Source of the DNA: Vampirovibrio sp.
GTDB lineage: Bacteria > Cyanobacteriota > Vampirovibrionia > Vampirovibrionales > Vampirovibrionaceae
Assembly (NCBI GenBank): GCA_021323475.1
Contig: JAJQJM010000007.1
Span: forward strand, 1-41,207
DNA length: 41,207 nt
Direction of reading: 5' to 3'
Shown here: one piece after another, positions 30,817 to 38,000 of the stretch
Numbering within the stretch: the stretch's first letter is position 1
Layout: the number at the start of each line of letters is the position of its first letter
Notes under the pieces: model-generated
What the model saw: only the letters and a program-made list of their open reading frames with translations
Told to the model about the DNA's origin: nothing
Database searches by the model: none
Program-made: the position numbers and the translations under genes

Positions 30817-33228
30817 TTATTGGCAGGCTTCGCAATCCGGATTGTCAATGGCGCAAGCCTGAGCGCTGCTGGGCTCTGCCTGACGGATATGCGTTTTGCC
30901 GAAGTGGGCCTGATCCACCGTTGCTTTTTCCACCTGGCTTGCGGCCAGAGAGCGCAGGTAATAAGTGGTTTTCAAACCCATGCTCCAGGCCATGGTATAG
31001 AGTTCATGTAGAAGTTTGCCGCTGGGTTGGGCCACAAACAGATTCAATGATTGGGATTGATCAATCCATTTCCCTCGAATGGCCGCCGCGCGAATCAACC
31101 AGCTTTGATCCAGCTCGAACACATCCGGGTATTTTGCCTTTAAGTCAGCGGGAACATTCTTCAGTTTGGAAAGTTGACCGTCTACCGCCTTTAAAGCAGC
31201 CACCATATCCGGCTGCCATAGCCCGCGCTTTTCCAAATCCTGCACCAGCCATTGGTTGATGACCGTAAATTCCCCGGAAAGATTGGAGCTGACATACAGA
31301 TTTTTGAAAGTCGGCTCAATGCAAGGCGTGGTGCCGATGATGTTGGAAATGGTCGCGGTGGGGGCAATGGCCATCAGGTTCGAGTTCCGCAGGCCGTTCC
31401 GGGCCACTCTAGCTTTCAGAATCTGCCAATCCAATCGCTGGTTGCGATCGCATTCCACGGGAAGGCCTCGTTCCAGCTCCAGCAGCGTCATGGTATCGAG
31501 TGGGAACAAGCCGCGATCCCACTTGGAGCCCTCGAAGCTGATATATTCGCCCCGTTCTTCCGCCAGGGCGCAGGATGCGGAAATGGCCTCGTAGCTAAAC
31601 CGTTCGACCAACGCATCGGCGACTTCCAGATGTTCTTCGGAGGCAAACGGAAGATCCAACTGATACAGCATTTCCTGATAACCCATCATGCCCAAGCCGA
31701 TGGCCCGGTGCTTCAGGTTGGCCTCTTTTGCCTCTTCGGTCGGGTAGAAGTTGATATCGATGACATTATCCAGCATGCGAACCGCGGAATGAATCGTCCG
31801 GCTCAGGCGCTCATAATCAATGCCGCCCTCAACAACATGTCGGGCTAAGTTAACAGAGCCCAAATTGCAGACGGCTGTCTCCTGAAGGCTGGTATTCAGG
31901 GTGATTTCCGTACACAGGTTGGAACTGTGCACCACGCCCACATGGTCTTGCGGGGAGCGCAGATTGCAAGGATCTTTAAAGGTAATCCACGGATGCCCGG
32001 TTTCAAATAGCATGGTGAGCATCTTGCGCCACAGCGCCTTGGCCTCAATGCGTTTTCCCTGAATTAATCCGGCTTCAAACTGGAATTCACGATCTTCATA
32101 CGCTTGTTCAAATGCGTTGCCGTATAAATTATGCAATTCCGGCACCTGATCCGGAGTAAATAGCGTCCAATGCGCGTTTTGTTGCACCCGCTTCATGAAC
32201 AGATCGGGAATCCAGTTGGCGGTATTGATATCATGGGTGCGGCGGCGCTCATCCCCGACGTTTTTGCGTAAATCCAAGAAATCCTCGATATCCAGATGCC
32301 AGGTTTCCAGGTACGCACAATGGGCTCCCTTCCGCTTGCCACCCTGATTGACCGCAATGGCCACGTCATTATCAATCTTCAGCCACGGAATCAGTCCTTG
32401 GCTTTGCCCGTTGGTACCTTGAATCAGAGAACCGGTAGCGCGAATGGGAGTCCAGTCCGTGCCGATACCGCCAGCCCATTTGGAGAGCCTTGCGTTATCG
32501 GTGTAGGCTTTGAAGATACCCTCAATGCTGTCATCCACCGTGTTTAAAAAACAGGAGGATAATTGCGGGTGAACCGTTCCGGCGCTAAACAGGGTGGGGG
32601 TGCTGGGCACATAATAAAAATCCTTGATGAGCTGGTAAAACTCAATGGCGCGCTCTTCTTTATTGGGTTCCAGCAAGGCCAGTCCCATGGCAATCCGCAG
32701 CCACATCCACTGGGGAAGCTCCAGAATCACCTGTTCCCGGTTGCGAATGAGATAGCGATCTTTCAAAATCTGGATGCCCTGGAACTGGAAATGTTGATCG
32801 GCTTTGCTATCAATCGCTTTGCTCATTTGTTCCAGATCAAAATCCAACAGCCGCTCATCCAAAATGCCTGCTTCCACGCCTTTTTGCAGGTAGTCGGCAA
32901 AGTGGGTTTCATACAGTTTTTGCAACTCCTGCTCCCGTGCGGAAACCGGGCCGAATACCTGCTGGTACAGCACCTTTAGCACCAGTCGGGCGGCCACATA
33001 CGAATAATTGGGATGTTGTTCAATCAAGGTGCGGGCCGATAAAATGGCCGACTCGTCAATTTCTTCGGTGCTGATGCCGCTGTACCAGGAAAGCTGACAG
33101 CCCAATGCCACATCGGACCAACTGACATTTTCCAGTCCTTCACAGGCGTCTTGTAATACCAGGTTGATTTTATCCTCTTGCACGGGCTCCATACTGCCGT
33201 CTCGGCGGCGTACCAGAATTGCGGACAT
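30817..33228 (-). CDS. nrdA: Ribonucleoside-diphosphate reductase class Ia, alpha subunit
   Basis: 803 residues. An ATP-cone lies at the N-terminus (ILVRRRDGSMEPVQEDKINL). The catalytic barrel has the active-site triad Asn437-Cys439-Glu441 in SSNLCTEI, the redox pair Cys226 (SSCFLN) and Cys454 (AVCNLGS), and the radical-relay Tyr pair in LKTTYYLRS. The C-terminal tail holds a CxxC (DCEACQ) for thioredoxin/glutaredoxin turnover. It reduces NDPs to dNDPs. It is the second gene of the nrdB-nrdA unit, 57 nt after nrdB, with AAAGGG before the ATG. The ATP-cone indicates dATP-regulated overall activity. Confidence 0.97.
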   Translation of the reverse strand: MSAILVRRRDGSMEPVQEDKINLVLQDACEGLENVSWSDVALGCQLSWYSGISTEEIDESAILSARTLIEQHPNYSYVAARLVLKVLYQQVFGPVSAREQELQKLYETHFADYLQKGVEAGILDERLLDFDLEQMSKAIDSKADQHFQFQGIQILKDRYLIRNREQVILELPQWMWLRIAMGLALLEPNKEERAIEFYQLIKDFYYVPSTPTLFSAGTVHPQLSSCFLNTVDDSIEGIFKAYTDNARLSKWAGGIGTDWTPIRATGSLIQGTNGQSQGLIPWLKIDNDVAIAVNQGGKRKGAHCAYLETWHLDIEDFLDLRKNVGDERRRTHDINTANWIPDLFMKRVQQNAHWTLFTPDQVPELHNLYGNAFEQAYEDREFQFEAGLIQGKRIEAKALWRKMLTMLFETGHPWITFKDPCNLRSPQDHVGVVHSSNLCTEITLNTSLQETAVCNLGSVNLARHVVEGGIDYERLSRTIHSAVRMLDNVIDINFYPTEEAKEANLKHRAIGLGMMGYQEMLYQLDLPFASEEHLEVADALVERFSYEAISASCALAEERGEYISFEGSKWDRGLFPLDTMTLLELERGLPVECDRNQRLDWQILKARVARNGLRNSNLMAIAPTATISNIIGTTPCIEPTFKNLYVSSNLSGEFTVINQWLVQDLEKRGLWQPDMVAALKAVDGQLSKLKNVPADLKAKYPDVFELDQSWLIRAAAIRGKWIDQSQSLNLFVAQPSGKLLHELYTMAWSMGLKTTYYLRSLAASQVEKATVDQAHFGKTHIRQAEPSSAQACAIDNPDCEACQ

Positions 33229-33285: not shown

Positions 33286-34326
33286 CTAAAAGTCATCCCA
33301 CTGCAAAGCGCCACCGGACTGGTATTCGGTAATCCGGGTTTCAAAAAAATTTTTGGATTTGGTTAAATCCACCGCTTCGCTCATCCACGGGAACGGGTTT
33401 TTGGCGTTAAATCTCGCCGGTAAGTTCAGCGCGTTTAACCGACGGTCGGCAATGTAGCGGGTGTATTCCTCAAAGCTGGCCGCGTTCATACCTAAAATGC
33501 CGTGGGGCATTAATTCTCTGGCATAGGCTTCTTCCAGTTCCGCGCCTTTTACAATTTTGTTGATGATTTTGCGCTGGAAGGGCTCTGTCCACAGCGTAGG
33601 CTGCTCGGCAATGATATGATGAATCATCTCAATGCCGAAGTTCATATGCATGGACTCATCGCGCATAATGTACTGGAACTGCTCGGCGGTGCCCGGCAGC
33701 AGGTTTCTGCGGCGGAAGGACAGCATAGCGGCAAACGATGAATAGAAGAAAATACCTTCCATGATGACGTAGAAATCAATCAGGTTTTCCAGAAATGCCT
33801 GATCCGCCTCGAACGCGCCGGTGGCAAAATCATTCCGCATAATGTGCGCGACCAATTCTGAGGCGAACTTATCCTTGTCGTAAATCGCCTGAATTCGCTG
33901 GTACATGGTAAAAATTTCAGCCTCGTTCAGGCCTAGACTTTCTACAATATATTGGTAGGCATGGGTGTGAATGGCCTCTTCATACGCCTGACGGAGCAGA
34001 TACATCCGGCATTCCGGCGAGGTGATGTGCTTGTAAACGGCCAGCACCAGGTTATTGGCCACAATGCTGTCGGCTGTGGTAAAAAAGCCCAACGCCAATT
34101 TAACGACCCGCCGCTCGTCTTCGGTCAGGATGGAATCGGAGCGCCATTGCTCAATATCCTTTTGCATGGAAATCTCGTTGGGTAGCCAGTGATTGGCATT
34201 GCCTGCCAGATACGCGTCCCAGGCGAACTGATGTTTCATGGGGTAAAGCTGGACGACATCGTCTTTTCCGTTGATAATCCGGCGTTGATTCACCTGATGG
34301 GCCAAGGAAGGCATAGCGTTTGACAT
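33286..34326 (-). CDS. nrdB: Ribonucleoside-diphosphate reductase class Ia, beta subunit
   Basis: 346 residues, ATG 34326 after GAAAGGACAAC. All diiron ligands are visible: Asp86 (TTADSI), Glu117 and His120 (YEEAIHTHAY), Glu190 (VIMEGIFF), Glu224 and His227 (MRDESMHMNF). Tyr124, four residues after His120, is the expected tyrosyl radical. It supplies the radical to NrdA and needs oxygen. It is the first gene of the operon and is preceded by a 300-nt leader with a cobalamin riboswitch, so its synthesis should fall when B12 is abundant. No nrdH/nrdI genes adjoin, which fits class Ia rather than Ib. Confidence 0.97.
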   Translation of the reverse strand: MSNAMPSLAHQVNQRRIINGKDDVVQLYPMKHQFAWDAYLAGNANHWLPNEISMQKDIEQWRSDSILTEDERRVVKLALGFFTTADSIVANNLVLAVYKHITSPECRMYLLRQAYEEAIHTHAYQYIVESLGLNEAEIFTMYQRIQAIYDKDKFASELVAHIMRNDFATGAFEADQAFLENLIDFYVIMEGIFFYSSFAAMLSFRRRNLLPGTAEQFQYIMRDESMHMNFGIEMIHHIIAEQPTLWTEPFQRKIINKIVKGAELEEAYARELMPHGILGMNAASFEEYTRYIADRRLNALNLPARFNAKNPFPWMSEAVDLTKSKNFFETRITEYQSGGALQWDDF

Positions 34327-34391
34327 GGTGAGTTGTCCTTTCAGCGTTGTCGTTGAAGTAATAATTCCGCAGCCGAAATCCAGACGGATTT

Positions 34392-34475
34392 TTATACCTG
34401 TGAAACGGCATCATTTCGCAGGAAATGGACAGCCAGCATTCCGGTTAAAAGCAGTGTAGCCGTAATAAAAAACAC
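34392..34475 (-). CDS. Possible small membrane peptide in the nrdBA leader
   Basis: From GTG 34475 the minus frame reads VFFITATLLLTGMLAVHFL, then RNDAVSQV, 27 residues, a plausible single membrane helix. It has no obvious SD, and in-frame upstream codons lack an ATG. It lies between the cobalamin riboswitch and nrdB. It may be only a chance frame; the leader's structure is the stronger signal. Confidence 0.2.
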   Translation of the reverse strand: MFFITATLLLTGMLAVHFLRNDAVSQV

Positions 34476-34509
34476 CAGGTCGAAAACGCGACCGAGCAGT
34501 TATTACGGC
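34459..34509 (-). promoter_or_regulatory. Large hairpin in the nrdBA leader with U-run
   Basis: GCCGTAATAA (34500-34509 read on the minus strand) and TTATTACGGC (34459-34468) form a perfect 10-bp stem. Inside it GGTCG/CGACC forms a 5-bp hairpin followed a few nt later by U6 (A's 34467-34472). The two structures compete: the inner one resembles a weak terminator, and the outer stem captures its U-run. It lies about 110 nt downstream of the riboswitch and is a candidate expression platform. Confidence 0.45.
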
Positions 34510-34604
34510 ATTCTATTTCTCAATCAGGAGGCGCGAATGTGAATGGGAGTTGCCAAAGCAATCATCGTCATACCTTTCTTGTGCTCGCAAGAAGTGTTAC
34601 AAAA

Positions 34605-34700
34605 GCCTTCTCTTCCGGTATTCTGGCTCCCTGACTCGACAGGTTACAGTTGCGGCACAGCCCCGGACTTTCACCGGAGTTCCCCAGACGAAAGGACTTA
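34605..34700 (-). promoter_or_regulatory. Cobalamin riboswitch controlling nrdBA
   Basis: The minus strand shows the conserved core: GGGGAACTCCGGTGAAAGTC, then CCGGGGCTGTGCCGCAACTG (34646-34655 complement) and the B12-box AGTCAGGGAGCCAGAA (34621-34636 complement). These match the RFN-like cobalamin consensus: GGTGAAA, CCGCAACTGT and rAGYCMGgAgaCC. It lies about 290 nt upstream of the nrdB ATG on the same strand, with no other gene between. B12 binding normally represses downstream genes, so nrdBA is predicted to be reduced when cobalamin is available. The boundaries of the outer stem are approximate. Confidence 0.92.
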
Positions 34701-35004
34701 ATCTACTTATACAATTTTTAAGCGCCTTGGGGAATGCTTTGTAAGATTTGTAAATTTACTATCCGTCTAGCATTTGACTGTCGTCCCAACGAAGCGAACG
34801 ATGTTCGACATTAGCCGGCTCGAATCCTTAAAATAGTGGGCAGCAGGTTCCATTACGGAATTTCAGAATGCAAATGCTTATAGACAGTCAGGCAATAGCC
34901 ATTCGTTGAGGATTCAGCCACAATTAGAGTGGGTTATTGTGCATCCCCGCCATGTTTCAGCCCGGATTTCAGCTTTAAGGCTTTAAGGAAGGAATATTTC
35001 CGGC

Positions 35005-38000
35005 GTGTTAATGTCGAGTATGGAAATGCATACGAGTTGGGACTACCGCCTGGTGACATTGTCCGTGCTGATTGCCGTCATCGGGTCTTATGTCGCGTTG
35101 GAATGCGCCAGAAAACTTAAGGTGAGTGAAGGGATTCAACGGAGCCTGTGGTTTGCCTGCGGCGCCATATTGATGGGACTTGCAATCTGGACGATGCATT
35201 TTATCGGCATGCAGGCTCTTAAAATGGCGATGCCGGTCTCGTATGACGCGGCATTAAGCGCGCTTTCCATGCTGGCGGCGGCCACAGGTTCGGGGATTGC
35301 CTTTGGGCTGCTGAGCCGGAAAACCATTGACAAATTCCACCTGATTGCCGGAAGCGTAGCGATGGGAATCGCCATTCTGGCAATGCATTATATCGGCATG
35401 GCCTCTATGCGGATGCCGGCCAAGGTACATTATGATCCGGTGTGGTTCTCTATTTCCGTGGTCATTGCGATTGTGGCCTCCGGGGGAGCGTTGTGGCTGG
35501 CATACCGGCCCAAGTCCAGGATATCGCGGTTTCGTTTCATAGAAACCGTGCTTAGCGCTCTGATCATGGGGATCGCGATTTCGGGCATGCATTATGCAGG
35601 GATGGCGGCCGCTTCCTATGTGCCAATTCATGCACCTGTCAGCGCAGCCGCGCGCATTTCCACGGTTGGGCAAATTTATACGCTGGGAGACCTGCTGATT
35701 GGGGCGGGCGCCGTGTTTTGCCTGATGTTGTTCCTGTTGGCAGCCCAGTTAGGCAGTGAGCGCCAGCAGATGCTGGAGAATTTAAGAAGCAGCGAAGAGC
35801 GCTTTGCACGGGTTCTGGAAGGCTCCAACGAGGGATACTGGGAGTGGGATGTACTGACCGGGGAACTGTTTTGGAGCCCTCAGCTGCGCTTGATGTTAGG
35901 CTTGCCGCTGGATGGGAAGCCCTTGCCGTTTGAGGCGTTTTCCAGGCTGCTGACGGATGATGGCCGGGAGACTATTTTAAAAAAACTGGAGCTTTGCATA
36001 GAAACCGGCGATTCCTTTCGGGAAGAATTTAAGATGCGCCATGTGAGCGGTGCTGAAGTCGAGTGTTTTTCGCGCGGAAAACCTTATTATGATGAAACGG
36101 GCAAAATTTCGAAAATGGCTGGCATGTTGTCGGACATTACGGAGAATAAGCGCATGCATGAGGCATTGCGCGAGAGCGAGGCCCGCTTCCGGCAGATGGC
36201 GGAATCCAATTTAATCGGCATTGCGTTCTGGAATATTTACGGAAAGATCTATGACGCCAATGATATTTTCCTGCGGATGCTCGGCTATACGCAGATTGAA
36301 ATGGCTGCCGGCAAATTGAACTGGCAGCAATTAACATTGCCCCAGGAGCAGAGGGCGCATGCCGAAGCCGTGAGGCAGGCCATTACCGGGCAATCCATTG
36401 CACCCTATGAAACGCAGTTTGTTCATAAGGATGGGCACAAAGTGGATGTGATGGTTGGGTTTGCGATGTTGAAGGGGTCGCTGGAGCAGGGATTCTCGTT
36501 TGTCATGGATATTTCGGATCGGAAGGTGGCAGAGGAGGCGTTACGCGAAAGCGCCCAAAAACTTCATTATATGTCGGAGTCCATGCCGCAAAAGGTGTGG
36601 ACGGCATTGCCGAACGGCGATATTGAGTACATGAACCGGAATTGGATGACCTATAGCGGCTTGGACTGGACGGAACTAAAGCCCTGGGGCTGGGTCAGGC
36701 TGGTGCATGATGATGACGTGGAGCAAACGGAAACGGTTTGGAACGGGGCTTTGCATAGTGGTCAGGCCGCCCAATTGGAGCACCGTTTGAGACGTTATGA
36801 CGGTGTATACCGTTGGCATTTAAGTCGGGGAGTCCCGATGAAGGATGAAGCGGGAAAAGTGATTATGTGGATTGGCACCAGCACCGACATTGATGATGTA
36901 AAACAGGCTCAGCAGGCACTACAGGAGAGCGAAAACCGTTTTCGGATTATGGCGGATCAGGCGCCCCTGAATATTTGGGTTACGGATGCGGCAGGCGATA
37001 CGGTTTATGTGAACAAGAGCTGGGTTGAATTTACCGGCCTGACGTATGAGGAGTGCCTGGATAAGGGTTGGGCGGAACTAGCTCACCCCGACTGTCTGGT
37101 CGAGCTTAGGGAGCGTTATGAGGAGGCGAAGAAACATTCGGGAGCCTTTGAGTATACCTGCTGGTTCAGACGGGCGGACGGCCAGTATCGGTGGCTTTAC
37201 ACGAAAGCTGCGGAGCGGCACAATGCTTCGGGAGAGCATGCGGGGTTTATTGGGACCACAATCGACATTACCGAACAAAAACGGGCTTCAGAGGAGCTGG
37301 AGGAGCTGATTCGCGAGCGAACCAGTGATTTGCAAAAGACCAATCAAATGCTGCAATCCATTATTGAAAACGTGCCGGTTATGATTTTTGTGAAAAACGC
37401 CAGCGATTTACGGTTCGAGTTATTCAACAAGGCGGGTCAGGATATTACCGGCTATACGGACAAAGATCTGCTGGGAAAAAATGATTATGATTTTTTCCCC
37501 TCGGAGCAGGCGACCTTTTTTATTGAAAAAGATCGGGAAGCGCTGCGGAATAAGAAAATGATAGATGTTGCGGAAGAGCCGATCAACTCAAAGCACGGCG
37601 AAACCCGTATATTGCACACCCGGAAGGTGCCTATTCTGGATGAGGCGGGAACACCTGTTTACATGCTGGGCGTTTCCGAAGATATTACGGAATACAAACA
37701 GGCCCAGACCCGGATTGAAGTTTTGAATCAGCAGTTGCAGGAGCAGATTAACAGTCTCAACGCCGTAAACCGGGAATTGGAAGCGTTTTCTTACTCCGTA
37801 TCGCATGACCTGCGGGCCCCGTTAAGGACGATTGACGGCTTCAGCCAGGCCATTGAGGAAGACTATGCCGACAAATTGGATGAGGACGGAAAGCGCTATT
37901 TGACCCGTATTCGGGAAGGCAGCCAGCAAATGGCCCAGTTGATTGACGATATGTTGAACCTGTCTCGTCTGACCCGGGGAGAAATTCACAAGGAGCCGGT

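Follow-up and report, generated by a model that had tools for sequence, protein, structure and literature searches.

A cobalamin riboswitch ahead of the class I ribonucleotide reductase genes of Vampirovibrio, possibly acting through a detached upstream open reading frame

In Streptomyces coelicolor, a B12 riboswitch controls the class I ribonucleotide reductase operon nrdABS (Borovok 2006, cited in PMC4991794); a first-pass annotation of the present locus had likewise pointed to B12 repression of the class I enzyme in other bacteria that also have NrdJ. In Mycobacterium tuberculosis, the B12 riboswitch of ppe2 gates the Shine–Dalgarno (SD) sequence of a short upstream open reading frame (uORF), uPPE2, which overlaps ppe2 at an AUGA motif and is coupled to it by termination–reinitiation (PMC11260477). 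In env8HyCbl and E. coli btuB, a kissing loop between L5 and L13 stabilizes the P13/ribosome-site hairpin (PMC10653944). The leader of nrdBA in a Vampirovibrio genome shares features with each of these systems. As in Streptomyces, a class I operon has a Cobalamin riboswitch in its leader, NrdJ is encoded in the genome and repression by B12 is expected; unlike it, the Vampirovibrio locus belongs to another phylum, has the order nrdB–nrdA without nrdS, and carries P13 over a uORF start site, whereas the Streptomyces control is described as transcriptional. As in ppe2, the aptamer is compact, without P8–P12, and the gated SD is that of a short uORF rather than of the main gene, but in place of the AUGA overlap a gap of 197 nt separates the uORF from nrdB. 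As in env8 (PMC10653944), the kissing loop is bulged; the hidden site in env8HyCbl and E. coli btuB, however, is the regulated gene's own, and L5 of the Vampirovibrio element reads UGCCG against a UCCCG consensus.

The window, i.e. the whole stretch of 41,207 nt that was analysed, belongs to a genome of 3.34 Mb (95% complete) whose NrdB shows 86–90% identity to that of the closest named relatives, Vampirovibrio chlorellavorus and further genomes of Vampirovibrio. A cmscan search with all Rfam families returned RF00174 (Cobalamin) as the sole match above gathering in the whole window, with a score of 33.0 bits that barely exceeds the gathering score of 31.5 bits (E = 7.9e-5 for 41 kb against 4227 families; E = 1.5e-6 at nrdB in a whole-genome search). 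The match covers the aptamer core (P3–P6 and B12 box) at 34617..34684 on the minus strand. The first-pass annotation had recognized a cobalamin riboswitch ahead of nrdBA on this strand from the letters GGTGAAA, CCGCAACTG and the B12 box (GAGCCAGAATACC), all of which are present, and the Rfam comparison that it proposed thus gave a match above gathering; the distance to nrdB, given there as 290 nt, is 291 nt from the aptamer 3′ end to the ATG at 34326.

The riboswitch lies on the coding strand in the leader of nrdB (33286..34326, minus), which encodes the class I beta subunit (PF00268, 289 bits; PRK07209, 536 bits over cut-off) and is followed on the same strand by nrdA (30817..33228, minus), encoding the alpha subunit with an ATP cone (TIGR02506, 697 bits over cut-off; domain matches PF02867, PF00317 and PF03477). 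A divergent gene lies upstream, at 35005, so that the leader belongs to nrdB, and nrdB has its own SD (AAAGGA), separate from that of the uORF. The NrdB protein carries a Tyr at the position of Phe127 in C. trachomatis R2. A class Ic enzyme, devoid of a tyrosyl radical, was rejected on this ground, and, since class Ic has Phe at this position, the Tyr suggests a tyrosyl-radical type of NrdB, consistent with an oxygen-dependent enzyme.

As the Rfam score lies just above the threshold, independent support for the riboswitch matters. The aptamer is closed by a stem P1 (arms AAGTCCTTTC / GAGAAGGCTT; aptamer with P1 at 34603..34700, minus), and over 14 elements the pairing of the P1 arms is better within an element than after arms are swapped between species (p = 6e-4). 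Compensatory changes occur in P4, P6 and P13: in eight sequences, 8 pairs are changed on both sides, a value reached in 0/500 shuffles. A second Vampirovibrio genome, G008, has the same riboswitch before its nrdB (32.5 bits). A covariance model of the aptamer with P13 (R1) scores 131 bits in the window, which is one of its training sequences, and 16 elements are found with P13 in the model in 14 of the 18 genomes of the order. The threshold score (33.0 versus 31.5 bits) would be compatible with an element that is decaying or has no function, as would its absence from the nrdB leaders of the sister clade, where the full model, run with filters off, finds none in G006, G007 and G009; however, core, L5, L13, P13 and P1 are all intact, the stems show compensatory changes and the lineage model gives a high score, albeit on a training sequence, so that decay is very unlikely. 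The P8–P12 arms, a feature of class I cobalamin riboswitches, are not present in the window aptamer, which is thus of a compact form, and the Rfam alignment shows only a 4-bp stem and a 6-nt loop in the P6 extension. In every feature that a sequence can reveal, the element behaves as a Cobalamin riboswitch, predicted to bind cobalamin, and both the riboswitch and the B12 logic of the locus are well supported. The functional unit is larger than the interval first annotated, spanning positions from about 34700 to 34524, where the uORF ends. Upstream of it, a putative −10 element TATAAG (34706..34711, minus) lies within a motif, AAAAATTGTATAA, present in the nrdB leaders of the genus according to a MAFFT alignment of five nrdB upstream regions.

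The presence of NrdJ and either import or synthesis of cobalamin had been predicted from the riboswitch, and the genome, probed with named families, bears out both predictions, the second in favor of import. Two class II genes are found. The first, on contig C30, encodes a protein of 1004 aa (PRK06556, 1262 bits over cut-off) with Ribonuc_red_2_N and TSCPD domains; the second is split over the ends of contigs C159 and C165, the halves matching complementary parts of the NrdJ model. On contig C56, a second Cobalamin riboswitch precedes a gene for a BtuB-like TonB receptor, followed by homologues of btuF, btuD and btuC. A BtuR/CobA adenosyltransferase is encoded in the genome, whereas a family search found no PduO adenosyltransferase. 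Family searches found no cobB/cbiA in the 95% complete assembly either, which suggests that the cell imports rather than makes B12. The Vampirovibrio cell therefore probably imports and adenosylates corrinoids. Across the genus, each genome has two types of NrdJ (one of ∼650 aa, the other of ∼930–1060 aa with TSCPD) beside the class I NrdAB.

The expression platform consists of a loop–loop contact, a hairpin and a short reading frame. Loop L5 (UGCCG, 34653..34657, minus) is complementary to loop L13 (CGAGCA, 34587–34582, minus) over five pairs with one bulged A. Both loops are invariant in 8/8 elements, so that the contact is seen as complementarity only, invariant columns being unable to covary. 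L13 caps the P13 hairpin (UUCUUG-CGAGCA-CAAGAA, 34576..34593, minus), in which covariation is visible, 85% of the cells being paired with changes on both sides in the eight aligned elements. The 3′ arm of P13 overlaps an SD, AAAGG (34573..34577, minus), placed 7 nt before the ATG at 34565 of a uORF of 13 codons (MIALATPIHIRAS, then stop; 34524..34565, minus), with a second in-frame ATG at 34571. The uORF stop (34524) does not overlap the nrdB start (34326), 197 nt further on. An SD with a start codon at 7–9 nt is found on the P13 3′ arm in 10/16 elements, and all seven nrdB and btuB elements have an SD at P13 with a start that is always ATG. Letter-shuffled nulls, drawn for each element, give 2–12% for any start and 0.6–4% for ATG; for the window, the null rate for SD plus ATG is 0.0095. 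The same layout of P13, SD and short ORF recurs at nrdB of G008, with a uORF of 37 codons, and in the btuB leaders of all five species of the genus, with 7–11 codons; the peptides at nrdB are unlike between species (13 versus 37 codons). Outside the genus, the elements of G001, G002, G004 and G005 have no SD or uORF at P13.

These last elements, together with the long untranslated spacer in the leader, would fit a riboswitch that acts on nrdBA directly, through Rho termination or RNA stability, with a uORF that is translated but dispensable. Within the genus, however, all nrdB and btuB leaders keep a strict distance between SD and start codon, which argues for a selected translation start at P13 and makes direct action improbable. 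When the window RNA is folded with the aptamer core enforced, the probability of P13 is 0.88 and the uORF SD is less open (0.28 versus 0.44); without ligand, the L5 strand is predicted to pair with the 5′ arm and loop of P13, so that the two states would be mutually exclusive. These calculations support a switch between exclusive states, and do so for the window only: in the other leaders, with the aptamer enforced and the kissing loop left out of the model, the probability of P13 is 0.02–0.33.

On balance, we favor as probable a B12 OFF switch of class I ribonucleotide reductase relayed through translation of the uORF. The ligand would most likely be adenosylcobalamin, because BtuR and NrdJ are present. 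Bound cobalamin would lock the aptamer and present L5 to L13; the kissing loop would stabilize P13, which would cover the SD of the 13-codon uORF, and translation of the uORF would stop. Expression of nrdB would then fall, most likely by premature transcription termination of the Rho type or by RNA decay in the then untranslated leader. With B12 available, nrdBA would thus be OFF and the B12-dependent NrdJ enzymes would make deoxynucleotides, the class I enzyme being reserved for B12 shortage. The first half of this scheme, in which the kissing loop would close the uORF start, draws on the motifs described above and on established kissing-loop work (PMC10653944); in the second half, we infer that lost translation of the uORF lowers nrdBA expression. 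Several facts speak against the relay: the uORFs end well before nrdB and btuB, genes with their own SD, so that a step not seen here is needed; the uORF peptides at nrdB are unlike between species; folding favors the switch in the window only; and three sister species run nrdBA without a riboswitch. The overall interpretation of the first-pass annotation is supported, with the qualification that the platform seems to act on the upstream ORF rather than directly on nrdB.

It is tempting to extend the relay to the genus, and to propose that Vampirovibrio B12 riboswitches as a rule gate a detached uORF of 7–37 codons and thereby control nrdBA or btuBFDC ∼150–300 nt downstream, probably by Rho-type polarity; this generalization is tentative, and we hold it for slightly less than an even bet. 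To our knowledge, a detached uORF at nrdB and btuB has no precedent. Elsewhere, the uORF lies against the gene that is controlled, with an overlap at ATGGTAA in G010 and at ATGA in G012, and a 7-nt gap in G013. The overlap known from ppe2 is thus seen at uncharacterised genes of G010 and G012 instead of at nrdB. If the rule were true, the detached uORFs would constitute a separate relay type of riboswitch platform that, in one lineage, may derive from overlap-coupled uORFs, while the same nrd link is served elsewhere in the phylum by terminators. If the relay itself were true, the uORF precedent of M. tuberculosis would reach into a further phylum and would come to include detached uORFs, a class overlooked by gene annotation.

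An ordinary transcription-terminating OFF switch, with an incidental uORF, is the first alternative suggested by the leader downstream of the uORF. There, a pattern scan detects a weak terminator-like hairpin (GCTCGGTCG..CGACCTGGT) followed by T6 (34466..34496, minus). At its 5′ arm lies TGCTCG (34498–34493), perfectly complementary to L13 over 6 nt. In the apo state, L13 would pair with TGCTCG and block the hairpin (34496–34473); with B12 bound, L13 would be engaged in the kissing loop, the hairpin would form before T6 and RNA polymerase would stop. This arrangement gains some plausibility from the strong terminators that most riboswitch leaders of nrdAB carry in Obscuribacterales, an order of this phylum. 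However, shuffled leaders give hairpins that are just as good (4/20; 30/150 for the best hairpin of the window leader), a 6-nt match within 100 nt has a chance of ∼2%, and the G008 leader and most btuB leaders have neither the L13 complement nor a good terminator. The window leader giving no signal against dinucleotide shuffles, an intrinsic terminator is disfavored as the main platform, and the terminating switch as a whole is unlikely.

A further alternative concerns the ribosome site of nrdB itself, which the 5′ strand of P1 would hide in the apo state, giving an ON switch or another direct control of this site. Indeed, the P1 5′ strand GUCCUUUC (34686–34695) and the nrdB site GAAAGGAC (34330–34345) are perfectly complementary over 8 nt, and three sister leaders have a shorter match, CCUUUC/GAAAGG. 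Yet G008, the one further species whose nrdB has a riboswitch, lacks the complementarity, and anti-SD-like matches of such length easily arise by chance. B12 would moreover turn a B12-independent enzyme on, contrary to the known logic. Direct control of the nrdB site is thus very unlikely, and the relay through the uORF is retained as the preferred reading.

Within the family, the riboswitch ahead of nrdB is restricted to the window and G008 among 10 genomes. In G006, G007 and G009, which carry nrdB and, in addition to NrdA, two matches to NrdJ, the lineage model with filters off finds nothing at nrdB; the nrdB leaders of G006 and G009 also lack any Rfam riboswitch match at E up to 5. A B12-box-like string seen by eye in the three leaders, GGGGAGTCAGAG, was considered as a riboswitch remnant and discarded, since the lineage model with filters off does not match it. 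Three sister species having NrdJ but no switch, NrdJ does not imply the switch, and a riboswitch at nrdB is optional in the genus rather than dictated by NrdJ. Among the family genomes searched, NrdJ is absent from G004 and G005. In a NrdB protein tree whose root inside the genus is not fixed, the two riboswitch carriers are grouped (85/86 support), which fits a gain of the element as well as a loss.

Beyond the family, Obscuribacterales and other Melainabacteria have, in the same phylum, B12-clan riboswitches ahead of class I nrd genes, ∼95–170 nt before nrdA. These riboswitches, at ten loci in Obscuribacterales and related bins, are of the Cobalamin, AdoCbl or AdoCbl-II types (RF00174, RF01689 or RF01482). 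Unlike the window, they precede operons of the order nrdA–nrdB, and most Obscuribacterales leaders contain strong intrinsic terminators, with hairpins of −13 to −24 kcal/mol matched by at most 1/30 shuffles. As judged from these leaders, class I nrd genes are repeatedly under B12 control in the phylum; a search of a collection of open-access papers for riboswitches in Melainabacteria returned nothing relevant. The same regulatory link would thus exist across non-photosynthetic cyanobacteria on different RNA platforms. In Vampirovibrio, it would tie the choice between oxygen-dependent and B12-dependent synthesis of DNA precursors to B12 supply, in an algal predator seemingly unable to make B12.

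The nrdB leaders of G009, G007 and G006, although devoid of a riboswitch, still contain an SD and a short ORF (MIIKRLHQAPE; MMIRRLHQTPE...), and ahead of the promoter the same three leaders share a block of strong conservation, TTTTACATACTAAACACGTAGTTGCTTAAACTATTTGCATGG, which may be an operator. In most Vampirovibrionales outside the genus, the gene behind the B12 riboswitch encodes an uncharacterised membrane-protein-like family of ∼430–470 aa without a Pfam match (G001–G005 and G010–G013). Its start overlaps the uORF in G010 and G012, and it is a candidate corrinoid-related protein.
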